Of a stretch of DNA of 35,903 bases, positions 4,642 to 28,972 are shown one piece after another. The position numbers and the translations under genes are program-made. Location: positions 1-35,903 of the forward strand of contig CAIWRB010000304.1 in the NCBI GenBank assembly GCA_903914955.1. The letters are read 5' to 3'. Origin of the DNA: an uncultured Chloroflexota bacterium. GTDB taxonomy: Bacteria > Chloroflexota > Anaerolineae > Anaerolineales > Villigracilaceae. The notes under the pieces are model-generated. The model did no database searches. It was given only the letters and a program-made list of their open reading frames with translations, and was not told the DNA's origin. Within the stretch, counting starts at the first letter, position 1; every line of letters begins with the position of its first letter.

Positions 4642-4717
<76 letters not shown>

Positions 4718-12264: not shown

Positions 12265-12299
12265 GGACCGCGCGGATTGAAGTCCGCAGTCCGAGTTAA
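12265..12299. repeat. Short dispersed hairpin repeat, copy 1
   Basis: GACCGC, then GCGGA-TTGAAG-TCCGC, then AGTCCG and TTAA. A similar arrangement occurs at 16779-16807, also directly behind a pstB gene. Together they look like copies of a REP-like intergenic repeat. No T-run follows, so it is not a typical terminator. Confidence 0.35.
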
Positions 12300-13054
12300 C
12301 CAAACCTGCCCATGACGTAATCTTCGGTTTTCTTCTGCTTGGGATTCGTGAACAGGCTTTTTCCATCACCATATTCAATGAGTTCACCAGTCAAAAAGAA
12401 CGCGGCGTGATCGGCGGTGCGCGCAGCTTGTTGAACAGAATGCGGCACAAGAATAATCGTGTACTCTTTTTTTAATTCAAAAAGCGCGGCTTCCACTTTG
12501 CCAGTTGAGATTGGGTCGAGGCCAGAGGTGGGTTCATCCAGTAGAATTACTTGAGGCTGCAAAGCGATCACACGCGCGAGACAAACGCGCTGTTGTTGCC
12601 CGCCTGATAATTCGATGGCGGATTCATCCAAACGATCTTTTACTTCATCCCAAATCGCAGATAGTTTTAAACTTCGTTCAACGGCTTCATCCAATTTGGA
12701 TTTTCGCTTTTCCCCCGCCAGCTCCAGTCCATAAATAATATTTTCGCGAATGCTCATCGGCAGGGTGACAGGCCGTGCGAAGACCATGCCCACTCTGCGC
12801 CGCAGAGCGATGACATCTGTCTTTGGGTCGAGAATATTTTCACCATCGATCAGGATGCGCCCCGAGCTGGCTTTGATCTCGGTCAGATCATTCAGGCGAT
12901 TAAGACAGCGCAGCAATGTGGATTTCCCGCCGCCCGCTGGACCGAATAAAACTGTCACAGCGTTCTGAGGAATTCCCATGCTGACGTTCCGCAATGACTC
13001 GGTGCCGTCGGAATATTGGAGCGATAAGTTTTCTATGATTATTTTATCTACCAT
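12296..13054 (-). CDS. pstB: Phosphate ABC transporter ATP-binding protein PstB (first operon, divergent)
   Basis: This 252-residue ATPase is clearly PstB by overall sequence ([30 protein letters not shown], ending MGRFG). Walker A is GPAGGGKST (38-46), signature LSGGQ (149-153), Walker B VILLDE (169-174) and the switch histidine is H205. Two oddities stand out: the Q-loop glutamine is replaced by alanine (GMVFARPVTLP, A93, where PstB has FQKPNPFP), and VPHS replaces VTHN at the H-loop. The Q-loop couples ATP hydrolysis to the permease, so coupling may differ. It overlaps pstA by 7 bp and closes the pstS-pstC-pstA-pstB unit. Confidence 0.92.
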   Translation of the reverse strand: MVDKIIIENLSLQYSDGTESLRNVSMGIPQNAVTVLFGPAGGGKSTLLRCLNRLNDLTEIKASSGRILIDGENILDPKTDVIALRRRVGMVFARPVTLPMSIRENIIYGLELAGEKRKSKLDEAVERSLKLSAIWDEVKDRLDESAIELSGGQQQRVCLARVIALQPQVILLDEPTSGLDPISTGKVEAALFELKKEYTIILVPHSVQQAARTADHAAFFLTGELIEYGDGKSLFTNPKQKKTEDYVMGRFG

Positions 13055-13911
13055 TGTCTTTTTGCTCTCGCACGCGAACGGATGACCGTTGCAATAACAT
13101 TCATGGTTAATACAAAAACCAGCAATACAAGCGCTGTCCCATATTGAATTTGGATCGGCATTTCAGGCACTTGTGTCGAAATGACAAACAAGTGATACGG
13201 CAAAGCCATGGTCGCATCAAATGGTGAGTGTGGAAGTTGTGGAAGGAAAAACGCGGCACCTGTGAATAATATCGGAGCGGTCTCGCCTGCGGCGCGTTCC
13301 AATCCAAGGATGATGCCTGTGAGAATGCCTGGCAGGGCTTCCTTCAAAATGATGCGGCTGATCGTTTGCCAGCGTGTCGCACCGAGGGAAATGCTCACGG
13401 TGCGGAAGGCTTGTGGAACGGCGCGCAATGCTTCTTCGGACGTGCTGATGATGACAGGCAGGGTCATGATCGAAAGTGTGAGCGAAGCCGCAAGAATGGA
13501 AGTTCCAAATTTTAGGAATAACACGAACAACCCCAAACCGAACAATCCATAGACTACCGAAGGAATGCCCGCGAGGTTAATAATTGCAAGACGGATGAGT
13601 CTGGTCAACTGGTTATCGCGCGCATATTCAGAAAGATAAATGGCGGCGGCAATTCCCAACGGGACGGAGAAAAGTGCAGTCCCAAGGGTCAGGTAAAGCG
13701 TGCCGATGATAGCGGGCAGAATTCCGCCGGCCCGCATTCCGTCATGCGGAAAGCCCGAAAGGAATTCCAATGAAATGGCTGATCCGCCTTTCACAAGAAT
13801 GAAGGCCACCGTACCAATGATTGGCAGGACGGTAACGAGCGCCATTAGTGTGATGGCGATAAATCCAAGTCGTTGGACTATGTGACGGTTTTGATCGAAT
13901 AGTTTCATCAT
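13048..13911 (-). CDS. pstA: Phosphate ABC transporter permease PstA (first operon)
   Basis: A 287-residue inner-membrane protein of normal PstA size with six predicted hydrophobic segments. The permease coupling (EAA) loop is present as RAVPQAFRTVSISLGATRWQTI, followed by LPGILTGIILGLERAAGETAPILF, diagnostic of PstA. It pairs with PstC to form the phosphate channel. The start at 13911 is the first of two adjacent ATGs; the ribosome site is weak. It lies 70 bp behind pstC and overlaps pstB. Confidence 0.95.
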   Translation of the reverse strand: MMKLFDQNRHIVQRLGFIAITLMALVTVLPIIGTVAFILVKGGSAISLEFLSGFPHDGMRAGGILPAIIGTLYLTLGTALFSVPLGIAAAIYLSEYARDNQLTRLIRLAIINLAGIPSVVYGLFGLGLFVLFLKFGTSILAASLTLSIMTLPVIISTSEEALRAVPQAFRTVSISLGATRWQTISRIILKEALPGILTGIILGLERAAGETAPILFTGAAFFLPQLPHSPFDATMALPYHLFVISTQVPEMPIQIQYGTALVLLVFVLTMNVIATVIRSRARAKRQW

Positions 13912-13981
13912 TGTGTTTTATATAATCTGGTGGTTGAATAGGGCGAATGTACTTTTGCCTGTATCGAATCCACAATCATAG

Positions 13982-14878
13982 TTATGATAATATTCTTTCC
14001 GCTCTCTTCTTGGCGCGGAATACAACAGAGGATGCGATAACGTTCACGATCAAAGAGATGATGAACAGAACCATCCCGATGAAGAACAAGACATGATAAT
14101 GGGTGCTGCCATTTGCAACTTCACCCATTTCTGCGGCGATGGTGGCGGTCATCGTGCGGACGGGGGCGAAGAGACTGCCAAGTCCAGTCGCGAGAACCGG
14201 AGCATTGCCAGTTACCATCATGACGGTCATCGTCTCGCCGATGGCGCGTCCCACGCCGAGCATGACAGCGGTCAATACGCCTGACTTCGCGGCGGGTAAT
14301 GTCACACGCCAGATCGTTTGCCAGCGAGTTGCGCCTAACGCCCAGGCCCCTTCGCGATAGGCGCGCGGAACTGAGTCCAGCGCATCTTCGGCCACCGATA
14401 CCACGGTCGGAACTGCGATCCCTCCCAGAAGGAGAGACCCTGTAAATGCTGTCAGACCAGTTGGCAGATTAAGAAAGACGCGTAGAAATGGGGCGAGCAC
14501 CAGAATCCCAAGAAATCCCAATACAACGGAGGGAAGTCCGCCAAGTAATTCCACCAGCGGTTTTAAAATTTCACGCATCCAGCGCGGAGCGACCTCGGAG
14601 ATATAAACTGCTGTGCCGATCCCAAACGGAACTGCGATGAGCGCCGCGCCGAGCGTTACGATCAACGAACCGCTGATGAGCGGCAGGATGCCGAAATAGC
14701 TTTCAATCGGATACCAGCGAAAATTGAGAAGTGAGGATACATCGACTTCGCCGAGCGCGGGCAAGCCTTCGCGTAAAAGAAAGAAAAAGATAAGCGCAAC
14801 AAATAAGATGGCTGAATAACCAGAAGATTGAATCAATCTGGTGATAATGAATTCACGCCAGGATAAAGATTTTTCCAT
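13982..14878 (-). CDS. pstC: Phosphate ABC transporter permease PstC (first operon)
   Basis: A 298-residue permease with the PstC hallmarks GLPALGEVDVSSLLNFRWYP, ELLGGLPSVVLGFLGILVL, the coupling loop SVPRAYREGAWALGATRWQTIW and VMLGVGRAIGETMTVMMVTG. I chose the ATG at 14878 (MEKSLSWREF) because GGAGA stands 5 bases in front of it; a longer frame to 14920 adds a basic stretch with no support. PstC and PstA form the membrane channel of the phosphate importer. The gap to the upstream pstS gene is 54 bp. Confidence 0.94.
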   Translation of the reverse strand: MEKSLSWREFIITRLIQSSGYSAILFVALIFFFLLREGLPALGEVDVSSLLNFRWYPIESYFGILPLISGSLIVTLGAALIAVPFGIGTAVYISEVAPRWMREILKPLVELLGGLPSVVLGFLGILVLAPFLRVFLNLPTGLTAFTGSLLLGGIAVPTVVSVAEDALDSVPRAYREGAWALGATRWQTIWRVTLPAAKSGVLTAVMLGVGRAIGETMTVMMVTGNAPVLATGLGSLFAPVRTMTATIAAEMGEVANGSTHYHVLFFIGMVLFIISLIVNVIASSVVFRAKKRAERILS

Positions 14879-14932
14879 AATTCTCCATCGTATCATTGCT
14901 TCGGGCTTACGCCGTCGCAATGACTATATTTT

Positions 14933-15808
14933 TTATTTTATCGCAGGCACAAATCCCAGATCCGCGACGATCTGCTGTGCTTCGTCGGAAAGGATCCAAT
15001 CGAGATAATCTTTGATAATGCCAACAGGTGCGCCATTGGTGTACATATAAAGATCGCGCGCGATGGCATAGGATTTATCGTTCACAGTATCAATGGATGG
15101 TAAAACATAAGGTTCGCCAACTTTTTTTGCGATGGCGATCATTTTCAGATCTTTGGGCACATAACCGAGTCCGTCATATCCGATCGCATTCGGGTTATCG
15201 CGCACTTCTGAGATGATCCCTTCCGATGAGGGCAGTAATAACGTGCTTGTTGAAAAAAATGTTTTGTCTTCCTTGTTTCCCAAACGCAAAACAGTTTCCA
15301 AAAAATATACATGCGTGCCTGAATTTGTTTCACGTGACAGCCGTACGATGGGGCGGTCTTCCCCGCCGACCTCATTCCAGTTTTTATATTTACCGCTATA
15401 AATATCCGAGATCTGTTGCAGCGTTAATTCGTTGACAGGATTTTCAGGATTCACGATCACAGCAATCGCATCCCGCGCGATGATGTGTTCAACGGGCGTG
15501 ATCCCATTCGATTGCGCTTCGGATGTTTCTTCATCCTTTATCTTGCGTGACGCGTTGGCGATATCCACTGTGCCATTCACCAGTGCCGCGATTCCCGTCC
15601 CCGACCCGCCGCCTGTTACCGATATGCGCACCTCTGGGTGGTCGCCCTGATATTTCTCCGCCCATGCCAGCGCAAGGTTGACAATGGTATCGGAGCCTTT
15701 GTTCTCAATATAATTCGCGGGCGAATCAGAGCCCGATGAATTGTTGGATTTGCTGCAGGAGGTGAAGATGAAAGATGCAAGAAGGAGGAGGCTGAGGACG
15801 CGTTTCAT
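14933..15808 (-). CDS. pstS: Phosphate-binding lipoprotein PstS (first operon)
   Basis: The 291-residue product has a lipoprotein signal with C18 (FIFTSC), a short Ser/Asn linker, and the type-2 periplasmic binding fold of PstS. The phosphate loop GGGSGTGIAAL and the segments VDIANASRKIKDEE, IYSGKYKNWNEVGG and LSRETNSGTHVYFLE are all typical. It delivers phosphate to PstC/PstA at the outer face of the membrane. There is no ribosome site before the ATG; a perfect TATAAT ends 8 bp upstream, so the mRNA is probably leaderless or nearly so. Unlike the second pstS (21114-22184), no 11-bp phased TT repeats precede it, suggesting different regulation. Confidence 0.94.
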   Translation of the reverse strand: MKRVLSLLLLASFIFTSCSKSNNSSGSDSPANYIENKGSDTIVNLALAWAEKYQGDHPEVRISVTGGGSGTGIAALVNGTVDIANASRKIKDEETSEAQSNGITPVEHIIARDAIAVIVNPENPVNELTLQQISDIYSGKYKNWNEVGGEDRPIVRLSRETNSGTHVYFLETVLRLGNKEDKTFFSTSTLLLPSSEGIISEVRDNPNAIGYDGLGYVPKDLKMIAIAKKVGEPYVLPSIDTVNDKSYAIARDLYMYTNGAPVGIIKDYLDWILSDEAQQIVADLGFVPAIK

Positions 15809-15816
15809 TGGAACGA

Positions 15817-15822
15817 ATTATA
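15817..15822 (-). promoter_or_regulatory. -10 box of the first pst operon (leaderless type)
   Basis: A perfect TATAAT on the minus strand, with TTCATG 17 bp upstream as a poor -35. Only 8 bp separate it from the pstS ATG, so transcription should begin at or within two bases of the start codon. Confidence 0.55.
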
Positions 15823-16861: not shown

Positions 16862-17542
16862 TTATTGCTTTCCAATCTCTTCTTTTGTATCTTTGATCTC
16901 AGACATCTCCCCTGTGGCAATGAAGATCGTGCGTTCGCAGATATTGGTTACGCGGTCTGCCACGCGTTCCAAATTGTGCGCCACCCATAAAAGCCAGTTG
17001 GCGCGTTCAATGGATTTGGGGTCTTGAATAATGAACAACATCAGCTCGTGGTAGATCTGATTGTAAAGCGCGTCCACTTCGTCGTCTTCAGCGGGAATCA
17101 TTTTTGCGGCTTCCACATCCTCTTTTACGAAGGCCGTCAGCGAACGATGCAGCATGTCCGCACCGATCTGCGCCATGCGTGGGATGTCGATCAGCGGCTT
17201 GAGCAAGGTCTCTTCGCCCATACGGATGTTGATGCTCGCGATACCCTTGGCGTAATCTCCCATGCGTTCCAACTCGGAAATAATTTCCATCGTGGATGCC
17301 AGCAGGCGCAGGTCATGCGCCATGGGCTGCTGTGTGGCGATCAGGATCATTAATTGATTTTCGATCGCGAATCGTTTTTTGTTGATCTCCGCGTCTTCAG
17401 CGATGATTCTTTCCGCGCCTTTGATATCGCGTTTCTTTAAAACATCCACCGAAGCGATGATGGCATGTTCCACCATGCTGCCCAGCAGAAGAACTTCATC
17501 TTTTACCTGTTGTATTTCGTGTTCGAATGTTTTTCGGATCAT
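16862..17542 (-). CDS. phoU: Phosphate transport regulator PhoU
   Basis: A 226-residue all-helical protein of standard PhoU length with the two repeated PhoU halves (about 15-100 and 115-205). Typical metal-site motifs are visible: ERMGDYAKGI in the first half and LERVADRVTNICE in the second. PhoU links the Pst transporter to the PhoR kinase and holds the Pho response off when phosphate is plentiful. It is the last gene of the pstS-pstC-pstA-pstB-arsC-phoU unit, 62 bp behind arsC, and it may also have its own promoter in that gap. GAGG lies before the ATG. Confidence 0.96.
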   Translation of the reverse strand: MIRKTFEHEIQQVKDEVLLLGSMVEHAIIASVDVLKKRDIKGAERIIAEDAEINKKRFAIENQLMILIATQQPMAHDLRLLASTMEIISELERMGDYAKGIASINIRMGEETLLKPLIDIPRMAQIGADMLHRSLTAFVKEDVEAAKMIPAEDDEVDALYNQIYHELMLFIIQDPKSIERANWLLWVAHNLERVADRVTNICERTIFIATGEMSEIKDTKEEIGKQ

Positions 17543-17569
17543 AATTACCTCGGGCGATTTGTGTTTCTT

Positions 17570-17598
17570 ATTTTACTACTGACAATACCATCTGACGA
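17570..17598 (-). promoter_or_regulatory. Possible internal promoter for phoU
   Basis: On the minus strand TCGTCA (17598-17593) and TAAAAT (17575-17570) are separated by 17 bp. The -35 matches at four positions. Two CTGACnAT blocks with a 13-bp period on the plus strand overlap it. Confidence 0.35.
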
Positions 17599-17604
17599 TA
17601 GTGC

Positions 17605-18036
17605 CTACGGCATAATACCTTGTTGAGTCAACCAAAGGTGCAGGCGATCTTCAATTTGATCACGAACCTGTCGGGTGGATGCGAGGCGCTGTTTTCCATC
17701 AAATTTTGCGGGGTCGTCGAACGGCCAGTGTTCGTGCTTGCCCATGTGGAGAAATACCGCGGGACAATTTTCCTCAGCGTTCGCACAAACGGTGATGACA
17801 TATCCGAAATGGACTTTGCCCAAATATTCCGTCACCGACTTGGACCACTGACTTGAAATGTCGATCCTGATTTCGCGCATCGCTTCCACAACCTCAGGAA
17901 GGATGCTGCCTTTTGGTTCAGTGCCTGCGCTGAAAACCTCGAGATGCCCGTCTGCCATCGCGCGCAGGAGTCCTTCCGCCATTTGACTGCGCGCTGAGTT
18001 GCCTGTGCAAAGAAATAATACTTTTGGTTTTGACAT
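17605..18036 (-). CDS. arsC: Arsenate reductase, thioredoxin-coupled (LMW-PTP fold)
   Basis: The 143-residue protein has the LMW-PTP P-loop CTGNSARS with catalytic C10. C84 and C91 (TVCANAEENC, C-x6-C) are spaced as in thioredoxin-dependent arsenate reductases, and the acid loop WPFDDPA provides the catalytic aspartate. It reduces arsenate to arsenite. The gene starts 1 bp after the pstB stop and is followed by phoU, so it is embedded in a phosphate-uptake operon. Arsenate is an unwanted Pst substrate, so induction of uptake would automatically induce detoxification. No arsenite exporter or ArsR is present in the window. Confidence 0.93.
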   Translation of the reverse strand: MSKPKVLFLCTGNSARSQMAEGLLRAMADGHLEVFSAGTEPKGSILPEVVEAMREIRIDISSQWSKSVTEYLGKVHFGYVITVCANAEENCPAVFLHMGKHEHWPFDDPAKFDGKQRLASTRQVRDQIEDRLHLWLTQQGIMP

Positions 18037-18037
18037 G

Positions 18038-18826
18038 TTATCCGAACCTACCTGTCACATAATCTTCGGTGCGTTTGTCTTTGGGGTTGGTGAATATTTT
18101 TTTTGTTTCCGAAAATTCTATCACCGTGCCTGAGCGTGAACCGTCTTTCTCCAGCATCATCATGGCGGTGTAGTCAGATACGCGAGCGGCTTGCTGCATA
18201 TTGTGCGTGACAATGATGATCGTGTAGTTTTTTTTGAGCTCCTGCATGAGTTCTTCAATACGAAGCGTGGAGATCGGGTCAAGCGCGGAGGCGGGTTCGT
18301 CCATCAAAATAATTTCAGGTTGAATGGCGATCGTGCGTGCGATGCATAGACGCTGCTGCTGTCCGCCTGAAAGTTCGTAAGCGCTCTTTTTTAGTTTATC
18401 TTTCACTTCATCCCAAAGCGCCGCCCCGCGCAGGGATTGTTCTACAAGTTCATCCATATTGCCCTTGAAGCCGTTGATCTTCGCTCCCCACGAAATATTT
18501 TCATAAATGGATTTTGGGAACGGATTTGGTTTTTGAAAGACCATGCCGATCTTACGGCGCACTTCCACGGGGTCTATGTTTTTACCATACAGGTTTTGTC
18601 CCTGCAAAAGGATCTCGCCTGTCACATAACTGCTGGGAACAAAATCATTCATGCGGTTGAAAGCCCGTATCAGTGTAGATTTTCCGCACCCCGAGGGTCC
18701 GATAATGGCGGTGACTTTTTGCTTCTCTATCTTAATGTTGACTTCGCTTACTGCGGCGAAACTTCCATAAAAGATAAAGAGGTTTTTTGTTTCAATTGCG
18801 ATATCTGGTGCGTTTATATTATTCAT
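18038..18826 (-). CDS. pstB: Phosphate ABC transporter ATP-binding protein PstB (second operon)
   Basis: A 262-residue PstB with all ATPase motifs in canonical form: Walker [11 protein letters not shown]-loop [14 protein letters not shown], signature LSGGQQQR, Walker B LMDE and the H-loop [18 protein letters not shown]. Only the D-loop neighbour is slightly unusual (DEPASALD). Of the three PstB proteins here it is the least diverged and is probably the main phosphate-import ATPase. It begins 14 bp after pstA and is followed directly by arsC. Confidence 0.97.
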
Positions 18827-18840
18827 GAGTCACTTCCGAG

Positions 18841-20079
18841 TTAATACTTTTTTTGCACGCGGTTGCGTAATAAGATCGCAGCAGCGTTCAAGGTTAACAG
18901 CAGGATGAGCAGGACGATGATGGCGCTGGCCGCGATGGAATGAAATTCAGATTGCGCGCGCGTTGTCCATTGGAAAATTTGAATTGGCAATGCCGTGAAT
19001 TTCGAGAAGGGACCGCTCGGGTCAATGCTGATGAAAGTGGATGCGCCCACTACGATAAGCGGCGCGGTTTCACCAATGGCTCGCGAGACCGCCAAAATAC
19101 TTCCTGTGAGAATTCCTGGCAGGGCATTTGGTAAAACGTGATGCCAGACAGTTTGCCATCTGGTGGCGCCAACTCCAAACGCGGCTTGACGTAACGAATC
19201 AGGCACAGACTTGATGGCTTCCTGTGCGTTGATGATGATCAACGGCAGTACAAGAGTCCCCATGGTCAGCCCTGCGGATAAGATGGTACGACCGTTCGAA
19301 TCCGTGACGCCGAACAGCCTTCCGCTGGTAAACGGTTCCAACGCCCGAACAAAGATCGCGAGACCAAGCATTCCGTACACAATACTGGGCACGCCTGCCA
19401 GATTGTTGATGTTGGTTTGAATGATTCGGTTGAGGAAATTCTTGCTGGCGTATTCCTGAAGATAGATTGCCGCGCCGGTGCCGATCGGCAGCGCGAACAG
19501 AAGCGCAATTCCCACCATCCACAATGACCCGAGAATGGCTGTACGCACGCCAGCGAATTCCGCTTTGGATGACATGGGCGTGGTCAGGAAGACCGGGGTA
19601 AGCCATGAACGAAATTCAAGTTTAGCTTCCGGATATTTTTCCGCAACTTCGGCTTTGATCTTTGCACTACGAAATATGGAATCGGTCATAGACCAGGTTT
19701 CTTTTGTGTCAATTTGAATCAAGCGCTCCAATAGCAATGTGTATAAAACTGACTTGGAACGCGTATCCATTGGTTTTTCATTTTCCAACTTCGTAAATGC
19801 GCCAGAGGAAAGATTGGCTTTAAGAATATCCAGTAATTCCTGTTTGTTCAGAGCGTCTAAAGGTTTCGTGCTGAATTCGGTCGGGTCATTCTTATATTCA
19901 AATGCCACATAACCGAATGCGCCATCAATGACATTGTAGAGCAGGGCGGCCAGGCTTAGGATGGCGATCACCAGCGCAGAGAAGAATAGTGTTTGCCAAA
20001 TGGACGCGCTGCGATAACGCCTGCCGAGGGAACGATGTAAGTCTTCGCCTTTAGGGTAATAGTCACGGTTTGGATTCAT
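18841..20079 (-). CDS. pstA: Phosphate ABC transporter permease PstA with extended periplasmic loop (second operon)
   Basis: At 412 residues this is about 120 longer than ordinary PstA. The C-terminal two thirds carry the normal permease core: NIKNNLAG-like TNINNLAGVPSIVYGML, the coupling loop SVPDSLRQAAFGVGATRWQTVW and LPGILTGSILAVSRAIGETAPL. The extra sequence lies between the first transmembrane segment (about 32-52) and the second (about 182-202): a mostly polar, helical stretch of about 130 residues (KPLDALNKQELLDILKANLS, YPEAKLEFRSWLTPVF) that should face outside. Its ATG overlaps the stop of pstC by four bases. The role of the loop is unknown; interaction with PstS is one possibility. 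Confidence 0.94.
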   Translation of the reverse strand: MNPNRDYYPKGEDLHRSLGRRYRSASIWQTLFFSALVIAILSLAALLYNVIDGAFGYVAFEYKNDPTEFSTKPLDALNKQELLDILKANLSSGAFTKLENEKPMDTRSKSVLYTLLLERLIQIDTKETWSMTDSIFRSAKIKAEVAEKYPEAKLEFRSWLTPVFLTTPMSSKAEFAGVRTAILGSLWMVGIALLFALPIGTGAAIYLQEYASKNFLNRIIQTNINNLAGVPSIVYGMLGLAIFVRALEPFTSGRLFGVTDSNGRTILSAGLTMGTLVLPLIIINAQEAIKSVPDSLRQAAFGVGATRWQTVWHHVLPNALPGILTGSILAVSRAIGETAPLIVVGASTFISIDPSGPFSKFTALPIQIFQWTTRAQSEFHSIAASAIIVLLILLLTLNAAAILLRNRVQKKY

Positions 20080-21020
20080 TCATACCTCTGGCGGAACTTG
20101 TTAATAATTCCCTGGCTGATGAGATTTAAGATCAACGTAACCAAAAACAGCATCAACGCGATCGCGAAGAGACTTGTGTAATCGATCGAGTTGTAGCTCA
20201 AGTCACCCCCGCTGATACGGGCGATGTGACCTGTCATGGTTTCAGCGGCCTTGAATGGATTGAATGTGAAGTTGGGGCCTGATCCTGCGGCAATGGCGAC
20301 GATCATCGTCTCACCGATAGCGCGTGAGATGCCGATGATGAGCGCCGCCCCGATTCCTGATAAGGCGGCTGGCAGAACGACCTGCACGCTGGTTTCAAAT
20401 TTTGTCGCGCCCATTGCGTATGCGCCTTCGCGCAGAGCACGCGGCACTGCGCTTAAAGCATCTTCACTCATGGATGAGATTAGCGGCAGGATCATGATTC
20501 CCATCACAAGGCCGGCGGATGCCATGTTGTACACTTCAACTGTCTGCTTGCCAAAGATACTTTGCAGAAGGGGAGTCATAAAGAGCAGGGCAAAATATCC
20601 GTAAACAACAGTTGGGATTCCAGCCAGAATCTCGAGGATGGGTTTTAACGCTGACCGTGCTTTCGGGGAGGCATATTCACTTAGAAATAAAGCAACTGCC
20701 AGTCCAAGTGGAAGCGAGACAAATATCGCGATGCTGCTTGTGATGAGTGTTGATGTCACCAGAGGCCAGATCCCGAAATGTCCAATGCCTGGCTGCCAGG
20801 TTGTGGTGCCAAAAAATTTTGCAAAGGTTACATCAGGATTCCCAAAGAAAAGCCAGGCTTCCTTGCCCAATTCGTAAACAATGGCGAGTGTGATGAAAAT
20901 GGATCCAAGCCCTGCAATGAACAGCAGGGCTTGGATTACACTTTCGCCAGGACGCATTTTCTTTTTTAGATCGAGCGGGCGGAAAAGTTGATTTTCCATA
21001 ATTGTATTTTCTTGTTTCAT
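20076..21020 (-). CDS. pstC: Phosphate ABC transporter permease PstC (second operon)
   Basis: A 314-residue permease with PstC signatures: GTTTWQPGIGHFGIWPLVTS, EILAGIPTVVYGYFAL, the coupling loop SAVPRALREGAYAMGATKFETS and ISRAIGETMIVAIAAGSGPN, with the long loop after it. An internal ATG at 20999 (MENQLF) is an alternative start; the upstream one at 21020 has a slightly better ribosome site (GAGCG). It is 93 bp downstream of pstS, with a strong hairpin in the gap, and overlaps pstA. Confidence 0.95.
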   Translation of the reverse strand: MKQENTIMENQLFRPLDLKKKMRPGESVIQALLFIAGLGSIFITLAIVYELGKEAWLFFGNPDVTFAKFFGTTTWQPGIGHFGIWPLVTSTLITSSIAIFVSLPLGLAVALFLSEYASPKARSALKPILEILAGIPTVVYGYFALLFMTPLLQSIFGKQTVEVYNMASAGLVMGIMILPLISSMSEDALSAVPRALREGAYAMGATKFETSVQVVLPAALSGIGAALIIGISRAIGETMIVAIAAGSGPNFTFNPFKAAETMTGHIARISGGDLSYNSIDYTSLFAIALMLFLVTLILNLISQGIINKFRQRYE

Positions 21021-21062
21021 TTGCGCTCTATAATTTCACAGGCTTACTTAAAAAGCATGAAT

Positions 21063-21092
21063 GGGCTGGCTCCATTTTTCGGAGGCCAGCCC
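21063..21092 (-). terminator. Hairpin between pstS and pstC (partial terminator or stability element)
   Basis: GGGCTGGC (21063-21070) pairs with GCCAGCCC (21085-21092), extended by TCC/GGA with one bulge. On the minus strand only CTTTTTA follows, several bases away, so read-through is expected. Such elements keep pstS mRNA more abundant than the permease message. Confidence 0.6.
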
Positions 21093-21113
21093 GGTATTGT
21101 TTAGTTTTTCTTA

Positions 21114-22184
21114 TTATTTTCCAGTGGCGGTCTTCCAGGCATCGATGGAAGCCTGAAGGTCAGTAGCAGGAGCGGCGAAGTAACCCACGTCGCTAATTTC
21201 GTTGTCAACATTGCTCAAGTAGAAGTAGATGAAAGCGGCAACCTGTGGTTTCTCTTTCAGAATATTGGCATCTGAGTAGATGAAGAGCGGGCGCGAGATG
21301 GGATAAGTTCCATCATCCACAGTCGCTTTGGAGGGTTCAACGCCTTCAACAGCAACAGCCTTCAACTTGCCTTGGTTTTCATTGAAGTATGCAAATCCGA
21401 AATAACCAATGGCGTACTTGGAACCTTCCACGCCTTGAACGAGCACGTTGTCGTCTTCAGAGAACTGTGCACCGGCAGCGCCAAGTAGGGCAGCTTTACC
21501 AGCAGCGAGATCAGCTTTTCCAGCAGCATCAGGGTAGAGAGGAGCAACAGCTTTTTCGTTGAAGTAATCGAAGGTGCCGCTGTCTGCACCTGGGCCGTAG
21601 ACCAGAATTGTTTCGGCAGGATAGGAAGGATCAACTTCATTCCATTTAGTGTACTGAGCGGTGAATATCTTGCCGAGTTGTTCAAGTGTGAGTGATGTGA
21701 CGAAATCATTTTCGGAACTTACAACTACGGTCAGGGCATCGGTACCAACGCGGAATGCGATCGGTTCACGCGGTGTGGCCAGAGCTTTGCAATTTTCGGC
21801 TTCGGCATCCTTGATCTTGCGGGAAGCGTTCGAGATATCGGTCTCGCCGGTCTTGCAGAAGCGTTCGAAACCAGCGCCGGTGCCAATGCTATCCACGGTG
21901 AGGTTGCCGGTGTAGCCTTCCTGTTGGAAGAGTTCAGACATGCGCTCGGAAAGCGGGAACACAGTGGATGAACCAGCCGTGATGATGTCACCAGTGACAG
22001 CGCCAGGGGCAAACATCGCCATTGGGTCTTCGGTTGGGGCGACAGTGGGTTCAACAACGACAGGGATTTGGGTGGCTGTGGGTTCCACAACAACCGGGGC
22101 TTGGGTGGCTTGGGCGCCACATGCGGCGAGCAAGAGGCTCATAGCTACTACAACAAACAATGATGAACGAACAATTTTGGACAT
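21114..22184 (-). CDS. pstS: Phosphate-binding lipoprotein PstS (second operon)
   Basis: I use the ATG at 22184 (MSKIVRSSLF), which has AAAGGAGA in front of it; a longer frame to 22229 is not supported. The 356-residue product has a lipobox ending at C22 (LLLAAC), a Val/Pro/Thr-rich linker with a repeated PVVVEPT motif (about 30-52), and the PstS fold with GSSTVFPLSERM, the phosphate loop SIGTGAGFERFC, ISNASRKIKDAE and IFTAQYTKWNEVDP. SIGTGAGFERF is the variant phosphate loop of the larger PstS group. It heads the operon pstS-pstC-pstA-pstB-arsC-phoU and has a candidate Pho box upstream. Confidence 0.96.
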   Translation of the reverse strand: MSKIVRSSLFVVVAMSLLLAACGAQATQAPVVVEPTATQIPVVVEPTVAPTEDPMAMFAPGAVTGDIITAGSSTVFPLSERMSELFQQEGYTGNLTVDSIGTGAGFERFCKTGETDISNASRKIKDAEAENCKALATPREPIAFRVGTDALTVVVSSENDFVTSLTLEQLGKIFTAQYTKWNEVDPSYPAETILVYGPGADSGTFDYFNEKAVAPLYPDAAGKADLAAGKAALLGAAGAQFSEDDNVLVQGVEGSKYAIGYFGFAYFNENQGKLKAVAVEGVEPSKATVDDGTYPISRPLFIYSDANILKEKPQVAAFIYFYLSNVDNEISDVGYFAAPATDLQASIDAWKTATGK

Positions 22185-22219: not shown

Positions 22220-22273
22220 ATGATAACAATCCCCTCTTAAGGACAATGGAAGATCAAGTTAACATCTTGTTAA
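22220..22273 (-). promoter_or_regulatory. Candidate Pho-box promoter of the second pst operon
   Basis: On the minus strand four hexamers start every 11 bp: TTAACA (from 22273), TTAACT (22262), TTCCAT (22251) and TTAAGA (22240). Nine bases later comes TATCAT (22225-22220), preceded by TG as in an extended -10. The Bacillus PhoP box is four TTAACA-like direct repeats with 11-bp spacing, so this fits a PhoB/PhoP-activated promoter. The first part (22259-22273) is also a palindrome, TTAACA-TCT-TGTTAA. Confidence 0.7.
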
Positions 22274-22281
22274 GAAAAAAT

Positions 22282-23206: not shown

Positions 23207-23917
23207 TTATGCGCGAGCCAAACCTGTAATGCGGATAAACGCGCTTCCCATATAACGGATTCCCCAACTTCCCAAAATCCTGAATGCGCTCCATTCCTTT
23301 TGTTTGCGGACTTTGGTGGTTTTGTTCTTCAACGCGGTCAACAAATCCGCGGCGCTGTTGCCTGCGAATTCCGTTGAACCGAGACCGATCGCATCCACGA
23401 TATGCGCGTCACTGTTGCCTAGCTGGGCAATATCCAAACGATTTGCCAGGATACGGGCGTAATGGTTGCTGATTCGGTCCAATGCGGTGGCGTTGTAGAC
23501 TTCGATGCCAATTAAGGTTTCAGCCACCTGAGGGTTGCGCAATGCTTTTAAAATAGTTCGGGCATTCAGGCTTTTCATTCCCATGCCGCCCGCCATTGGA
23601 TGAGGCGCAACGCAAACGCCGCCGAGTTCACGCACCCGTAAAACGGTTTCGACCAGTGATAGGCCGGCTTCCACTTTTTCTGTGATGAAATATGCCAGCA
23701 GGTCACCATCAGCGGTGGTGATCTCGATTCCGGGAATCAATTCCACGCCGTAGTTGGATGCGATTTCCAGTGCCTTGAGCGCTCCCGCAATTTCGTCGTG
23801 GTCAGTGATCGCGATCACGTCTAATCCCAGTTGTTTTGCGCGGGATAAAACGGCAGCGAGCGATGCGGTGCCGTCGTAACTATAAATTGTGTGTAAGTGT
23901 AAATCTGCGTGTCCCAT
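23207..23917 (-). CDS. PHP-domain metal-dependent phosphoesterase
   Basis: The 236-residue protein opens with the PHP motif HADLHLHTIYSYDGTAS and continues with AITDHDEIAGALKAL, GIEITTADGDLLAYF and CVAPHPMAGGMG, giving the His/Asp metal ligands of the fold; NSDAH near the end is the last ligand. Relatives include 3',5'-nucleoside bisphosphate phosphatases and RNase AM. I chose the ATG at 23917 because AAGGAG stands 7 bases before it. Its pairing with surE points to nucleotide salvage or phosphate release. Confidence 0.9.
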   Translation of the reverse strand: MGHADLHLHTIYSYDGTASLAAVLSRAKQLGLDVIAITDHDEIAGALKALEIASNYGVELIPGIEITTADGDLLAYFITEKVEAGLSLVETVLRVRELGGVCVAPHPMAGGMGMKSLNARTILKALRNPQVAETLIGIEVYNATALDRISNHYARILANRLDIAQLGNSDAHIVDAIGLGSTEFAGNSAADLLTALKNKTTKVRKQKEWSAFRILGSWGIRYMGSAFIRITGLARA

Positions 23918-24009
23918 GTTTTCTCCTTGTTTCAAATACAAGTCTACCCGTTGGCTATTAAGAGCCTGTGAATATTAGTTTAAGAAATGGTATGGGTTTT
24001 ATTAACAAA

Positions 24010-24033
24010 AACCACCCGCCAAAGCGGGTGGTT
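24010..24033 (-). terminator. Rho-independent terminator of the 35-codon gene
   Basis: AACCACCCGC (24010-24019) and GCGGGTGGTT (24024-24033) form a perfect 10-bp stem with a four-base loop. On the minus strand the stem runs into TTTTTGTTAAT; on the plus strand only three T's follow, so it serves the minus-strand transcript. Confidence 0.88.
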
Positions 24034-24034
24034 T

Positions 24035-24050
24035 CCTCAAGGAGGTGAGG
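24035..24050 (-). ncRNA. Hairpin with an anti-Shine-Dalgarno loop in the 3' region of the 35-codon transcript
   Basis: The minus-strand RNA would contain CCUCA-CCUCCU-UGAGG: a 5-bp stem that exposes CCUCCU in a six-base loop, one base before the terminator stem. The wider segment UCACCUCCUU is identical to the 16S rRNA 3' end that pairs with ribosome sites. Loops of this kind are used by several Gram-positive regulatory RNAs to block AGGAGG ribosome sites. Whether it does so here is inference. Confidence 0.45.
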
Positions 24051-24060
24051 AGAAATCCAA

Positions 24061-24168
24061 TTATGTGGATTTTTGTTTCTTAAGGAATTCGCGGCGTTTG
24101 CGAGTCGCGTCCACGCTGAAGACGACGATCATGGACAGGAAAATAACTGAGGGTAGAATTGTTTCCAT
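24061..24168 (-). CDS. Small membrane protein of 35 residues, candidate Pho-regulated
   Basis: An ATG at 24168 with GGAGCG 5 bases upstream opens a 36-codon frame ending in TAA at 24061. The product is METILPSVIFLSMIVVFSV plus the tail DATRKRREFLKKQKST: one hydrophobic segment of about 16 residues followed by a strongly basic end that should face the cytoplasm. It has its own ribosome site, a promoter with the same architecture as pstS, and its own terminator, which together support a real gene. I recognise no family. The same transcript carries the CCUCCU hairpin, so it could act as protein, as RNA, or both. A peptide that modifies the Pst transporter or PhoR is a possible role, with no direct evidence. 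Confidence 0.6.
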   Translation of the reverse strand: METILPSVIFLSMIVVFSVDATRKRREFLKKQKST

Positions 24169-24191
24169 ATACGCTCCGTTTCTTTGTGCCT

Positions 24192-24245
24192 ATCATACAT
24201 CAATCTTTTGAAGAATGACCTAAGAAACACTTAACAACTTGTTAA
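24192..24245 (-). promoter_or_regulatory. Candidate Pho-box promoter of the 35-codon gene (possibly shared with sixA-ppk)
   Basis: Minus strand hexamers at 11-bp steps: TTAACA (from 24245), TTAAGT (24234), TTAGGT (24223), TTCAAA (24212); then TATGAT (24197-24192). The distance from the 15-bp palindrome to the -10 box is 33 bp, exactly as upstream of pstS. The palindrome here (24231-24245, TTAACAACTTGTTAA) differs from the pstS one by a single base. Read on the plus strand the same core gives TTAACA, TTAACG, TTCTCC, so it might also act toward sixA-ppk. Confidence 0.65.
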
Positions 24246-24325
24246 CGTTTTTTTCTCCCCTCACAGGGCTCCTGAGGATGATATTATTGATAAAATATTT
24301 TCAGTCATAGTCAGGAGAATAGACC

Positions 24326-24836: not shown

Positions 24837-26936
24837 ATGACCGAATCTGTTTCTCCAACTGTTGACCTTACCTCTCCCGCTCTTTATCTTAACCGTGAGT
24901 TGAGTCTGCTTGAATTTCAGCGCCGCGTGCTAGAAGAAGCCTGGGACGAATCCAATCCGCTGCTGGAACGCGCAAAATTCCTCGCTATTTTCGGCTCGAA
25001 CATGGATGAGTTCTTTATGGTGCGCGTCTCGGGTATTCGCAAACAGGTGGAAGCGCGGATCATGGAAGTCTCGCCTGATGGGTTGACTCCGCCGGATCAA
25101 TTGGCGGCAATTCGCAAGTTGGCCCTGGAATTAATGATCGAGGCACAACGCTGTTATCAACGAAAACTTTTACCCAAGCTGGATAAATCGGGAATTCATA
25201 TTATTGAGTATCAAAAATTAAGCGCAACACAAAAAGCCCGCGCAGATGCGTATTTCAAGGATGTGATTTACCCTGTGCTGACGCCACTCGCACTTGACCC
25301 CGGCCATCCATTTCCGCACATTTCAAATTTAAGTTTGAACCTGGCCATCGTGATCCGCGACAAAAAGGGCAATGAAAAATTTGCGCGTTTGAAAGTGCCA
25401 GATACTTTGCCGCGCCTTCTTCCGATCAAGCGTTCTTCGGGCAGTGTTCGCAAAGATGGGACAATTCCGCATCAGCATTATTTTGTCTGGCTTGAGCAGG
25501 TCATCGCCGCCAATCTCGATGATCTCTTCCCCGGCATGGAAGTGACCGCCGCGCATCCCTTCCGCATTGTGCGCGACGCCGACATCGAAATTCAGGAACT
25601 CGAAGCAGATGACTTGCTTGAGACCATGCAGCAGAATATCCGCAAACGTAAATTCGGATCGGTGGTGCAGGTGGCTGTCTATGAATCCATGCCTGAGAAT
25701 ATCCGCGAACTGCTGGTGGATAATCTTGAAGTAACCCGTCATGATGTTTACGCTTTGGAAAGTCCGTTTGGCCTAAGTGGATTGTGGCAGTTATACAGCA
25801 ATGTGGAACGGCATGATCTGAAAGATGCTGTTTATAAGCCGCGGATTCCCAATGCGTTCCGCCATGCCGCAACCGCAAGCGAAATATTTGATGCCATCAA
25901 GAATGAAAATATCCTAATCCATCATCCATATGATTCGTTCAACCCTGTTGTTGATTTCATCAATGCCGCCGCGCGTGATCCGCAGGTGCTGGCGATCAAG
26001 CAAACTCTTTATCGCGTTGGCTCGAACGCACCTGTAGTCGAAGCACTACTTAAAGCCGCCGAGAGCGGCAAGGAAGTGGCCGTGCTGGTTGAACTCAAAG
26101 CGCGCTTCGATGAAGAATCAAATATCAGTTGGGCGCGCGCCTTGGAAGAAGTCGGCGTGCACGTGGTTTATGGACTCGTTGGCTTGAAGACCCATTGCAA
26201 AGTCACCATGGTTGTCCGTCAGGAGGGCGCAGGGATTCGCCGCTATTTGCATCTTGCCACAGGGAATTACAATGCGAACACTTCCCGTATTTATGAAGAC
26301 ATCGGCATTTTTACCTGTGATGAAAACATGGGTGCGGATGCAACCGACCTGTTTAATTATTTAACAGGCTATTCAACAAAACAGGAATATCGCAAATTAT
26401 TAGTTGCCCCCGTTAGCCTGCGAAAGAAATTGGAGAAAATGATCCTGCGTGAAATTGAACATGCACAGCAGGGGCGTAAAGCCCACTTGATCTTTAAACT
26501 TAATTCACTGGTTGACCCGCACATGATCCAGCTTTTATATCAGGCATCACAGGCGGGCGTGCAGGTGGAACTTCTGGTGCGCGGTATGTGCTGCCTGCGC
26601 CCCGGCATAAAAGGTGTCAGTGAAAACATTCGCGTGATCAGCATTGTCGGGCGTTACCTCGAACACAGTCGTTTATTTTATTTCCATAACGACGGCAAGG
26701 AAAATATTTATCTCGGCAGCGCAGACCTGATGACGCGTAATCTCAATCATCGCGTTGAAGTTGTCTTCCCGATCGAAAGCAAGGATCACATAAAATATTT
26801 ACGCCACCATGTTTTGGATACTTATTTGAAAGACAATACCCGAGCCCGTATTCTTCAATCCGACGGAACATACATCCGCCTCGCGCCCGAAGCAGGCAAG
26901 GATATTATTGATGTGCAGGAAAAATTTATGAGTTAA
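24837..26936 (+). CDS. ppk1: Polyphosphate kinase Ppk1
   Basis: The 699-residue enzyme has all four Ppk1 domains, beginning LYLNRELSLLEFQRRVLEEA and FGSNMDEFFMVRVSGI. The two active-site histidines are H453 (GLKTHCKVTMVV) and H610 (YLEHSRLFYF), 157 residues apart as in the E. coli enzyme. The conserved HPYDSF, RRYLHLATGNYN and YLGSADLMTRNLNHRVE segments are present. It makes polyphosphate from ATP. I prefer the ATG at 24837; an in-frame TTG at 24813 would overlap sixA. Its stop codon overlaps the stop of the convergent phoR, leaving no terminator between them. Confidence 0.97.
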   Translation: MTESVSPTVDLTSPALYLNRELSLLEFQRRVLEEAWDESNPLLERAKFLAIFGSNMDEFFMVRVSGIRKQVEARIMEVSPDGLTPPDQLAAIRKLALELMIEAQRCYQRKLLPKLDKSGIHIIEYQKLSATQKARADAYFKDVIYPVLTPLALDPGHPFPHISNLSLNLAIVIRDKKGNEKFARLKVPDTLPRLLPIKRSSGSVRKDGTIPHQHYFVWLEQVIAANLDDLFPGMEVTAAHPFRIVRDADIEIQELEADDLLETMQQNIRKRKFGSVVQVAVYESMPENIRELLVDNLEVTRHDVYALESPFGLSGLWQLYSNVERHDLKDAVYKPRIPNAFRHAATASEIFDAIKNENILIHHPYDSFNPVVDFINAAARDPQVLAIKQTLYRVGSNAPVVEALLKAAESGKEVAVLVELKARFDEESNISWARALEEVGVHVVYGLVGLKTHCKVTMVVRQEGAGIRRYLHLATGNYNANTSRIYEDIGIFTCDENMGADATDLFNYLTGYSTKQEYRKLLVAPVSLRKKLEKMILREIEHAQQGRKAHLIFKLNSLVDPHMIQLLYQASQAGVQVELLVRGMCCLRPGIKGVSENIRVISIVGRYLEHSRLFYFHNDGKENIYLGSADLMTRNLNHRVEVVFPIESKDHIKYLRHHVLDTYLKDNTRARILQSDGTYIRLAPEAGKDIIDVQEKFMS

Positions 26937-28165
26937 TTTTTCGCGAGGGGAATTACAAAATAGAAAACACTTCCATGTCCTTCATCGCTTTCCGCCCAAA
27001 TTTTTCCACTGTGCGCTTCGATGATGTGTTTTGAAATTGAAAGACCAAGTCCCGTGCCAGAACCTGTGCGGGATTTGTCGACTCTATAGAATCTTTCAAA
27101 GATACGCGACAGACTCTCCGCTGGGATTCCGACTCCCGAATCCCGCACAGCGAATCTAATCCCGCCGACCGCTTCGCGTGATCCTGCTTCGATGGAAATC
27201 TCCCCCCCAGGTTTTGTGAACTTGACCGCGTTGTGGATCAAATTGACCAGCACCTGCTCCAGCCGTGATTTATCCGCGCGGATGTTCGGCAGGTCATCAT
27301 CACACTTAATTAATAATTTTAATCCGGCGCGTTCGGCTTGCATTTTCATGCGGTCAGCCGCAGAGTTGATCAAACTCTGCGGCGCCAGCGGCGCGAGAAT
27401 CAATTCCACTTGACCTGATTCGATGCGCGAGAGGTCGAGCAATTCCTGCGCCATCTGCGTCAGCGCGTCTACTTCGATGCTTATCCTGCCTAAGAAACGT
27501 GGGCCCGCATCCGGGTCCGAGAGAGCGCCGTCTTGCAGCGTTTCGGTTAGCGCTTTGAGCGAGGCAAGCGGAGTCCGCAGTTCATGCGAAACATTTGAGA
27601 TGAAATCCCGCCGCACGGTTTCGAGTCTGCGCACGCGGGTCAGATCCTGCACCAGCAGCAGACTTCCGCTCGTGTGGGTGTCTGGGATGGCTATGATCTG
27701 CAAAAATAAACGGCGCGCAGGCAATTCAATTGACTCGCTTTGCATTTCATTCGTTTGCTGACAGCGCCGCCACGCATCTACGAGTTGGTGGTTGCGCACA
27801 ATTTCGGTGACACTATGCCCGATCGCATTTGATGTTTCAAAAAGTTTTTGCGCGGCGGGGTTCGCAAATTGGATCAAGCCATTCGCGTTAGCAATGATCA
27901 CGCCATCGGTGAGTTGTTCAAGCACGGTGGAAAGGCGGGCGTTATCAGAGTCTAAAGTCGCAAGTCGAAGGTCGAAGGTTGAATGTAGTGAGGCGATGGC
28001 ATTGGATAGATTTTCAAGACCTTTTGCATCGGTGGGAAAGTTATCTTGATTGCGAATAAGTTGTGCATAAGCATTCATACGCCGTTTTAAATCATAATAT
28101 AGCCAGGCAAACCACACGGCGATAATAAATAAAACGATAACCAATATCAAAAGAAATGAATTCAT
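26933..28165 (-). CDS. phoR: Phosphate-regulon sensor histidine kinase PhoR
   Basis: A 410-residue kinase: one N-terminal transmembrane segment (about 4-24) with almost no external part, a PAS domain (about 80-175; LEQLTDGVIIANANGLIQFANPAA), the dimerisation/phosphoacceptor helix with H194 (FISNVSHELRTPLASLKAL), and an ATPase domain with N box NLIHNAVKFT, G1 DSGVGIP and G2 GTGLGLSI. This layout without a sensor loop is that of PhoR, which senses phosphate through PstSCAB and PhoU. It lies behind phoB with a 33-bp gap made of 7-bp repeats, and another 7-bp tandem repeat lies inside its coding region (residues about 60-71). Confidence 0.93.
   Translation of the reverse strand: MNSFLLILVIVLFIIAVWFAWLYYDLKRRMNAYAQLIRNQDNFPTDAKGLENLSNAIASLHSTFDLRLATLDSDNARLSTVLEQLTDGVIIANANGLIQFANPAAQKLFETSNAIGHSVTEIVRNHQLVDAWRRCQQTNEMQSESIELPARRLFLQIIAIPDTHTSGSLLLVQDLTRVRRLETVRRDFISNVSHELRTPLASLKALTETLQDGALSDPDAGPRFLGRISIEVDALTQMAQELLDLSRIESGQVELILAPLAPQSLINSAADRMKMQAERAGLKLLIKCDDDLPNIRADKSRLEQVLVNLIHNAVKFTKPGGEISIEAGSREAVGGIRFAVRDSGVGIPAESLSRIFERFYRVDKSRTGSGTGLGLSISKHIIEAHSGKIWAESDEGHGSVFYFVIPLAKN
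27954..27988. repeat. 7-bp tandem repeat inside phoR
   Basis: Five units in a row on the plus strand: AAAGTCG, CAAGTCG, AAGGTCG, AAGGTTG, AATGTAG. It encodes the HSTFDLRLATL stretch of PhoR, in the linker before the PAS domain. Confidence 0.7.
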
Positions 28166-28198: not shown

Positions 28199-28909
28199 CT
28201 ACCCTTCAAATCTATACCCGCCGCCTCTGACGGTGACAATGCGCAGCGGATTGGAAGAATCTGTTTCGATCTTTTGGCGCAGCCATCTAACATGCACATC
28301 CACTGTGCGGCTGTCGCCAATGAATTCCCAGCCCCAAACACGCTCAAGGATAAATTCGCGCGAGAGCATTTGGCGGCGATGTTCAGCGAGGAAAAGCAGG
28401 AGCTCATATTCTTTTGGTTTGATCTGAATCGGACCACCATTGAGAAGTACTTCGCGGCGGGTGAGGTCAATGATGAGGTTATCAAATATTAATTTTTCAT
28501 GTGGAGAGTTTGCGTCTTTAGACTTTCCCATTTCTTCGCGCAGTAAGCGTGCCCGCCTAAGTTGTGACTTGACCCGCGCCATCAACTCGCGCATCGAAAA
28601 TGGTTTGCTCATGTAATCATCCGCGCCGACTTCAAGACCGACTACGCGGTCAATTTCATCGTCACGGGCAGTCAGCATCAGAATGGCGGCGGACATTTCC
28701 TTGCGGAGAATGCGCGCCACTTCAAAGCCGTCCATTTCTGGCAGCATGATATCGAGCACGATCAGGTCAGGTTTCAAGCGCCGCGCAATTTCAAGCGCAG
28801 CGCGTCCATCCCCAACAGTTTCCACGGTATAACCTTCTTTTTTTAAGTTATACGCGAGCGTCTCTTGTAAAGAGAGTTCATCTTCAACGATCAGAATTGT
28901 TTCAGGCAT
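28199..28909 (-). CDS. phoB: Phosphate-regulon response regulator PhoB (OmpR family)
   Basis: The 236-residue protein has a receiver domain (acidic ED at 9-10, phosphoacceptor D53 in [22 protein letters not shown] lysine) and an OmpR-type winged-helix domain ([49 protein letters not shown]). The neighbouring PhoR, pst, phoU and ppk genes make PhoB (PhoP in Gram-positive usage) the natural name. It would bind the 11-bp phased repeats upstream of pstS and the 35-codon gene. It is transcribed before phoR. Confidence 0.93.
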
Positions 28910-28972
28910 TGATGGGAATATACCATAAAGAGGCCTTGCACTTATTAAGGGGAGGTTAATGGTATTTACTTA

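Follow-up and report, generated by a model that had tools for sequence, protein, structure and literature searches.

A Pho-box-linked small membrane protein gene of Anaerolineae carries a conserved anti-Shine-Dalgarno tract and has candidate small-RNA siblings

C-rich loops of anti-Shine-Dalgarno sequence are a feature of CcsR, a small RNA (sRNA) of alphaproteobacteria. The CcaF1-CcsR (CIN1) locus of these bacteria is reported to consist of a small-protein gene that is co-transcribed with downstream sRNAs (PMC10253847). The Listeria sRNAs LhrC1-5 are described as several siblings under the two-component response regulator LisR, with CU-rich sites that bind the Shine-Dalgarno region and with oppA, which encodes an oligopeptide-binding protein, among their targets (PMC5880928, PMC4132741). 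The csRNAs of the CiaRH regulon of streptococci are likewise described as similar siblings with an unpaired anti-Shine-Dalgarno sequence and stem-loops, and CiaR as acting via the direct repeat TTTAAG-N5-TTTAAG (PMC3091779). Finally, the small, positively charged DUF1127 proteins are reported to bind PhoR and to be linked to the control of phosphate uptake (PMC12501420). Anti-Shine-Dalgarno sibling sRNAs and operons that combine a small protein with an sRNA are known kinds. In a thin search of the literature, judged mainly by titles and the openings of abstracts, we found no base-pairing sRNA described for the Anaerolineae; nor did that search show a description of the sibling family presented below, of its Pho-controlled coding relative, or of the mostly leaderless message.

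The unit described here lies on the minus strand of a 35,903-nucleotide stretch of Anaerolineae DNA, the whole of which we call the window. It is flanked by sixA-ppk on the plus strand and by PHP-surE-pstS-pstC on the minus strand. The original prediction placed on this strand a promoter, a ribosome site, a short membrane peptide gene, and a hairpin with an anti-Shine-Dalgarno loop followed by a terminator, and every one of these parts was found in its place with the sequence described. The reading that we favor, and to which the sequence comparisons lead us to give about an even chance, is that the unit codes for a protein under Pho control and is at the same time a sibling of anti-Shine-Dalgarno sRNAs, a family repressing mRNAs of uptake systems in the manner of LhrC, the csRNAs, and CcsR. 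The likeness to LhrC lies in the siblings, the CU-rich anti-Shine-Dalgarno tract, and candidate targets that encode solute-binding proteins; LhrC pairs with oppA (PMC5880928). Unlike LhrC, the unit and its siblings have no Rfam match, belong to another phylum, and include one sibling-like tract inside a protein-coding Pho unit. They differ from the csRNAs in their repeats, CGTAGGG/CGTCAAG, and again in the absence of an Rfam match. Whereas CcaF1-CcsR has an RpoHI/RpoHII promoter, the unit has a Pho-type box, and its peptide does not match DUF1127 (none at E ≤ 1 for the window peptide or for any of the 45 members that were aligned). The unit resembles the DUF1127 case in that a gene for a small basic protein is found next to pho/pst genes, but differs from it in sequence and in having a hydrophobic segment before the basic tail; by analogy, the binding of DUF1127 proteins to PhoR is a functional precedent for the peptide and not a relative of it.

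The open reading frame (24061..24168, minus strand) has 35 codons and encodes METILPSVIFLSMIVVFSVDATRKRREFLKKQKST, a hydrophobic stretch followed by a basic tail. The best 17-residue hydropathy mean is 2.4, over residues 3-19, and the tail has a net charge of +5. Given one hydrophobic stretch and a basic tail, a single membrane pass with the tail inside is likely. The conservation of the peptide in relatives, proposed earlier as a check, was confirmed by homologues with E-values down to 1.4e-15 in sister genomes. At E < 0.01, homologues occur in 44 of the 101 relatives searched, and the peptide was found in 41 of 57 genomes of the same genus and in 3 of the 4 family members that belong to other genera. 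When a peptide profile was compared with 396 genomes of the class, matches with E < 1e-4 were confined to the peptide's own family. Matches with E > 0.003 outside that family look like chance, except, by its context, one in another family of the order (G066, locus L048; E 0.05), where a similar frame lies directly before surE. Pfam and NCBIfam offered no convincing family, the best single-member E-values being 0.008 and 0.03 and the window peptide having no match.

Forty-six distinct peptides were collected, and 45 were aligned after one was omitted. Residues M1, D20, and K24 are invariant among these 45 members, and E2, A21, R25, R26, and L29 are nearly so. The ratio dN/dS between the window and loci L003, L004, L006, and L007 is 0.015-0.07 at 41-55% synonymous difference, and it is 0.18 against L013; the value of 0.66 against the near-identical L005 stems from few changes and is uninformative. 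Across 166 moderately diverged pairs, drawn from the 35 of 57 units that align without gaps, the median is 0.32. Judged by these substitutions, the peptide coding sequence is under purifying selection.

The setting of the unit is also conserved, as its placing beside PHP-surE-pst and phoR or sixA-ppk recurs in relatives. In the window, the downstream neighbor is a PHP-domain gene (23207..23926, minus strand). A PhoR gene lies at 26933-28165, and at 28199-28969 a Trans_reg_C domain marks a response regulator whose position makes it PhoB-like. In tblastn searches with the window proteins, PHP lies downstream in 26 of 31 named Anaerolineales-type loci and SurE in 23 of 31, and 25 of 31 have PhoR or SixA-PPK on the opposite flank, several of these loci being interrupted by contig ends. 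Free-standing units that bear the tract discussed below also occur in other genera (L028, L065, L066, L069, and one of the L046 pair). An operonic form, with the gene directly before or overlapping surE and with neither CU tract nor hairpin, is seen in nine copies that are more distant or are duplicates. Locus L046 holds the small gene in two tandem copies (G060:C10:127240 and 127652), one free-standing with a CU tract and a terminal hairpin that bears a CCUCCU loop, the other overlapping surE.

Upstream of the open reading frame, the direct repeats GTTAACA-N4-GTTAAGT-N4-CTTAGGT (24218..24246, minus strand) have an 11-bp period and precede a -10 element, TATGAT (24192..24197, minus strand). 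Fifty homologous upstream regions align as GTTTACC-N4-GTTAACT-N4-CTTAAGT followed by TATGAT, TATCAT, or TAAGAT, which holds the same position in most homologues; the GTTAA core is absent in 6 of the 56 units scanned. A search with the exact Pho-box pattern failed as a regulon finder, giving 3 matches in the window's own genome against 11 in the reversed control, and therefore a matrix was applied to the window instead. Built from the 50 regions, the window's own site included, the matrix scores 40.5 bits at the unit, and its next independent match in the window, at 17.8 bits, is a set of Pho-box-like repeats upstream of pstS (22250..22274, minus strand). The claim of a Pho-box-like promoter thus stands, in that 11-bp-spaced repeats are common to the unit and the region upstream of pstS. 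A second run of 11-bp-spaced repeats (23956..24006, minus strand) is a candidate promoter of the PHP gene, a role to be read cautiously given matrix scores of only -0.1 and -4.3 bits.

This second run bears on whether the unit could be a leader-peptide attenuator for the PHP-surE-pst operon. The order of a short open reading frame, a hairpin, and then genes on the same strand would suit such a device, but the amino acid sequence is under selection along the peptide, no run of control codons is visible in the peptides of the window and the printed homologues, and the further Pho-like run, weak as its score is, follows the hairpin. We regard attenuation as highly improbable.

The distance between promoter and start codon differs among units. 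In 28 of 50 units, the closest -10-like hexamer ends 6-7 nt before the ATG; in 17 it ends 18-28 nt before it, and in the remaining 5 none was found. Since it lies so close to the ATG in many units, many members are probably leaderless. The window's subclade is different in having a leader with GGAG, and the ribosome site GGAGCG (24172..24177, minus strand) is present in the window as originally proposed; most homologues, however, seem to be without one, as the -10 spacing in 28 of 50 indicates.

The conserved element downstream of the peptide gene in relatives is a CU tract, UUCUUCUCCUCCUU, mostly predicted to be unpaired, which precedes a covarying GC hairpin. It resembles the anti-Shine-Dalgarno tail of 16S rRNA. 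The first 60 nt after the stop codon contain the 8-mer TCTCCTCC in 30 of 48 free-standing units but in only 8 of 569 control 3' regions from the same neighborhoods, and CCTCC in 42 of 48 units compared with 34 of 569 controls. A CUCC tract is absent in 4 of the 48 (L004, L016, which retains CCCCCC, L045, and L070). Its position is 1-13 nt, once 23 nt, from the stop codon and 0-23 nt before the hairpin, so that the idea of a constant spacing to the hairpin, as opposed to the stop codon, was not borne out. When the 3' part was folded, the tract core had a mean unpaired probability of at least 0.7 in 35 of 44 tract-bearing units. It fell below 0.5 in the window (0.21), L005 (0.06), L013, and L069.

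The window's own 3' region contains TTTCTCCTC and CCTCCT and lacks the 8-mer TCTCCTCC. Its counterpart of the family tract, UUUCUCCUC (24047..24055, minus strand), is mostly paired in a local hairpin, UCCUCA-CCUCCU-UGAGGA (24034..24051, minus strand; loop at 24040-24045). This tract is shortened and the least typical, and by folding it is among the four least accessible of 44, so in the window unit only the CCUCCU loop may be free. The loop-bearing hairpin was part of the original prediction, and the untranslated region does fold as drawn there, at -27.2 kcal/mol. The hairpin proved, though, to be a local variant, its form being confined to the window and L005; what is conserved of the predicted anti-Shine-Dalgarno sequence downstream of the peptide gene is the CU tract. 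L008-L012 have a small hairpin with a different loop at the same position, the CU tract of most other units is free, and loops bearing CCUCCU or CUCCUC recur in the terminal hairpins of one L046 copy and of L069, which represent two other genera.

The terminal GC hairpin, AAACCACCCGC-UUUG-GCGGGUGGUUU (24009..24034, minus strand), was recognized from folding and covariation and is followed by a T-run. The covarying stems sought in homologous units were found here: among the 34 of 42 sequences used, 7 of 10 pairs changed on both sides, and 0 of 500 shuffles scored as high. T-runs of at least 4 after the hairpin are mostly limited to the window's subclade, L036 being an exception. Just beyond the hairpin of the Pho unit stands TTAA, without a long U-run, similar to a TTTAA of the siblings described below. 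By conservation, and assuming a single transcript, the unit has both a coding sequence and a conserved non-coding pairing region.

These features also suit a simpler account, which we consider possible though less than probable: the unit may be the mRNA of a Pho-regulated small membrane protein, with the CU tract and hairpin serving as a signal for the 3' end or stability and having no targets in trans. The peptide is clearly under selection, the tract lies between the stop codon and the hairpin, 0-23 nt before the latter, and the window's tract is poorly accessible. Moreover, hairpins outside the window's subclade mostly lack a T-run, which makes a special 3'-end signal conceivable, and TTTAA or TTAA recurs a few bases past the stem in the unit and sibling families. 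Against this account, stand-alone loci have the tract as well, and few other genes are followed by it (8 of 569), which argues that it is not a general 3'-end signal.

The stand-alone loci, which in our preferred reading are sibling sRNAs, came from a search of two complete relatives with the 13-base complement of the tract. Of its 8 places, two are the unit itself and four are intergenic loci that bear the tract on the opposite strand; a CRISPR spacer and a coincidental match in a coding sequence make up the rest. The exact 18-mer TTTCTCTTCTCCTCCTTT is present in 34 of the 37 genomes of the genus, and 43 of 61 genomes have it when as many as 2 mismatches are allowed; among nine matches inspected outside the genus, only L123 and L124 are sibling-like. 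The window's own genome has siblings L152 (type A) and L153 (type B). Several loci with the same unpaired anti-Shine-Dalgarno tract can occur in one genome, and some genomes show one only. After inspection of their surroundings, L114, L119, L122, L125-L128, L144, L149, L167, and L190 were dropped before alignment, L191 was removed as a duplicate, and the short L186 was left out of the alignment only. Among the 63 aligned copies, UUCUCCUCCUU does not vary and the CU bases on either side hardly do, an identity that is partly due to the selection of rows by 18-mer match (up to 2 mismatches). The terminal hairpin shows double changes at 6 of 11 pairs in these copies.

Among the rejected candidates, L119/L251 reads as a signal-peptide coding coincidence, and a scan of viral contigs with the 18-mer gave 5 places, none with the sibling promoter or hairpin pattern. 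L114 is the CRISPR spacer (L114:1497-1514; G020:C1:35728-35745). It matches about 31 nt of the type A locus L116 of the same genome, which we read as either self-targeting or the trace of a mobile copy.

At E ≤ 0.01, a covariance model of the siblings matched 149 of the 298 genomes of the class that were searched, with 92 of 186 genera represented; these E-values are rough, and a strong locus (G025) scores at about 1e-6 on the opposite strand, so the weaker matches need care. Tandem CGTAG / CGTC[AC]AG repeats accompany 55 of 64 loci of the genus set, compared with 21 of 1780 positions drawn at random from these loci. They also accompany 23 of 25 further loci (L208-L232), a sample that favors the sibling reading since it comes from the best-scoring covariance matches. 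When as many as 3 mismatches are allowed, the box CGTAGGG-N4-CGTAGG-N4-GCGTCAAG has 6 matches in three genomes, all in sibling loci, and none in the reversed control. Upstream of loci A and B, the tandem box stands at G000:C342:6526-6554 and G000:C205:30986-31014 with an 11-bp period, and it is conserved in distant families of the class. Rfam contained no family for the window unit (at gathering scores) or for seven sibling loci (at E ≤ 1), the only match among the seven being an unrelated Thr_leader (E 0.11) elsewhere in L152. About 5 bases past the sRNA hairpin, a TTTAA is conserved without a long U-run (L152:1972-2073, L153:1975-2076, and homologues); TTTAA or TTAA in this position is possibly an unusual 3'-end signal.

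Might the tract be an antisense artefact, with the plus-strand AGGAGGAGAAGA being simply the ribosome site of a plus-strand gene? Some start codon does follow the plus-strand GGAG at 4-13 nt in 38 of 57 units. The resulting frames, however, run from 2 to 81 codons with neither length nor start conserved. Furthermore, four sibling loci were inspected for a start codon within 22 nt of the complement; L115, L116, and L120 lack one, and L121 offers only a 14-codon TTG frame. The sibling promoter box also points the opposite way. This explanation strikes us as scarcely credible.

If the siblings are anti-Shine-Dalgarno sRNAs, their candidate targets should be sought among strong ribosome sites. The sequence AAGGAGGAGAA is rare, with 5, 8, and 8 places in three genomes, sibling loci counted, and 3, 3, and 0 in reversed controls. 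Frames of at least 40 codons at Shine-Dalgarno distance from the remaining sites comprise two orthologous pairs of solute-binding lipoproteins (SBPs), assigned to families 3 and 5 by Pfam, one response-regulator-like gene, and one gene of no assigned function. We compared orthologous SBP starts with the sibling tract, counting a match only if it began no later than the sixth residue and removing repeated upstream sequences. A match of at least 9 nt (9-12) was present at 30 of 30 SBP starts and at 0 of 156 starts of seven neighboring genes. The two SBP genes had themselves been picked by the tract-complement search in three genomes, their orthologues are not independent, and four of the 30 starts are the genes originally found or an identical copy. 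The SBPs were matched in 20 and 39 of 57 genomes, and 20 aaSBP and 30 oppSBP places yielded 15 distinct starts each (15 of 15 and 15 of 15), with mean matches of 10.7 and 9.8 nt. By eye, many SBP starts have an upstream TTTCTC able to pair with GAGAAA, which would place the Shine-Dalgarno sequence in a loop. That the complement of the tract is kept at SBP starts speaks against a tract that serves only the 3' end of its own message.

The match is less telling when taken by itself. Among 537 background genes, from loci taken for other purposes, a match of at least 7 nt is found at 21 of 27 lipoprotein-like genes versus 89 of 510 others, and one of at least 9 nt at 3 of 27 versus 9 of 510, many of the 27 being pstS orthologues, so that these counts are not independent. 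For the family-3 SBP (aaSBP), compared across the class, 7 of 7 starts within the window's own family match over 9-12 nt, compared with 8 of 21 outside it that reach at least 9 (seven a plain AAAGGAGGA, one 11 nt), the other 13 having 4-8. The long match is therefore characteristic of the family, whereas a match of 9 nt has no specificity by itself. Predicted duplexes with the family-5 SBP start of the same genome amount to -18.4 kcal/mol for the window's untranslated region, -19.1 for sibling A, and -22.4 for sibling B. The window's region gives nearly equal values with the starts of PhoR (-17.9) and PstS (-16.0); with this similarity and the tract's poor accessibility, target choice by the window copy is uncertain. 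The non-specific 9-nt match and the poor accessibility led us to lower our confidence in the sibling-sRNA reading from slightly better than even to the even standing given above. Repression of many messages, as first proposed, narrows to candidate SBP mRNAs, with the complement at 30 of 30 starts.

Control could instead be in cis, the tract pairing with a ribosome site in its own or a read-through transcript, at its own start or that of PHP. The window has GGAGCG before its own frame and AAGGAG before PHP, and a duplex of -11.4 kcal/mol is predicted between its untranslated region and the PHP start. On the other hand, the -10-like hexamer 6-7 nt before the ATG leaves 28 of 50 units no room for a Shine-Dalgarno sequence of their own, and units of this kind keep the tract; PHP starts match over a mean of 5.9 nt, 0 of 41 reaching 9 nt. 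We judge control in cis improbable.

The comparisons establish, at the level of sequence, that the peptide, promoter repeats, tract, and hairpin are conserved, that a sibling family exists, and that SBP starts are complementary to the tract. In the mechanism that we propose for the sibling-sRNA reading, low phosphate would turn on the Pho-box promoter of a gene that belongs to the Pho regulon and encodes a small membrane protein with a single pass, and the 3' untranslated region of its message would double as a base-pairing RNA. The translated peptide would probably act at the membrane on neighboring Pho/Pst proteins. The 3' part, a CU tract resembling the 16S tail and ending in a stable hairpin, would pair with strong AAGGAGGAGAA-type ribosome sites and lower translation of ABC solute-binding lipoproteins, as conserved complementarity suggests. 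Since the tract is common to the unit and the sibling family, phosphate hunger may tune the uptake of other nutrients. A more inclusive reading, which we offer only tentatively and consider rather doubtful, is that a class-wide, uncatalogued set of sRNAs mimicking the 16S tail controls nutrient-uptake mRNAs in Anaerolineae, and that a Pho-controlled mRNA for a small protein, mostly leaderless, has as its 3' end one sibling that was captured or that evolved into this role. Phosphate hunger would then yield a Pho-tuning membrane peptide and dampen strong-Shine-Dalgarno translation, the leaderless message escaping the block. Should the favored reading hold, it would provide a large, mostly uncultured class with an sRNA family whose set of targets can be tested, and would connect phosphate hunger with the uptake of amino acids and peptides. 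Existing metatranscriptomes could easily be probed with the 18-base tract.

The window also holds two phosphate-transporter-like gene sets (12296-15817 and 16862-22184, both minus strand), each with a binding protein, a permease, and an ABC ATPase, and with PhoU at 16862-17572. Rfam further identified a selenocysteine tRNA at 4087-4179 and another tRNA at 4643-4717, both on the minus strand.
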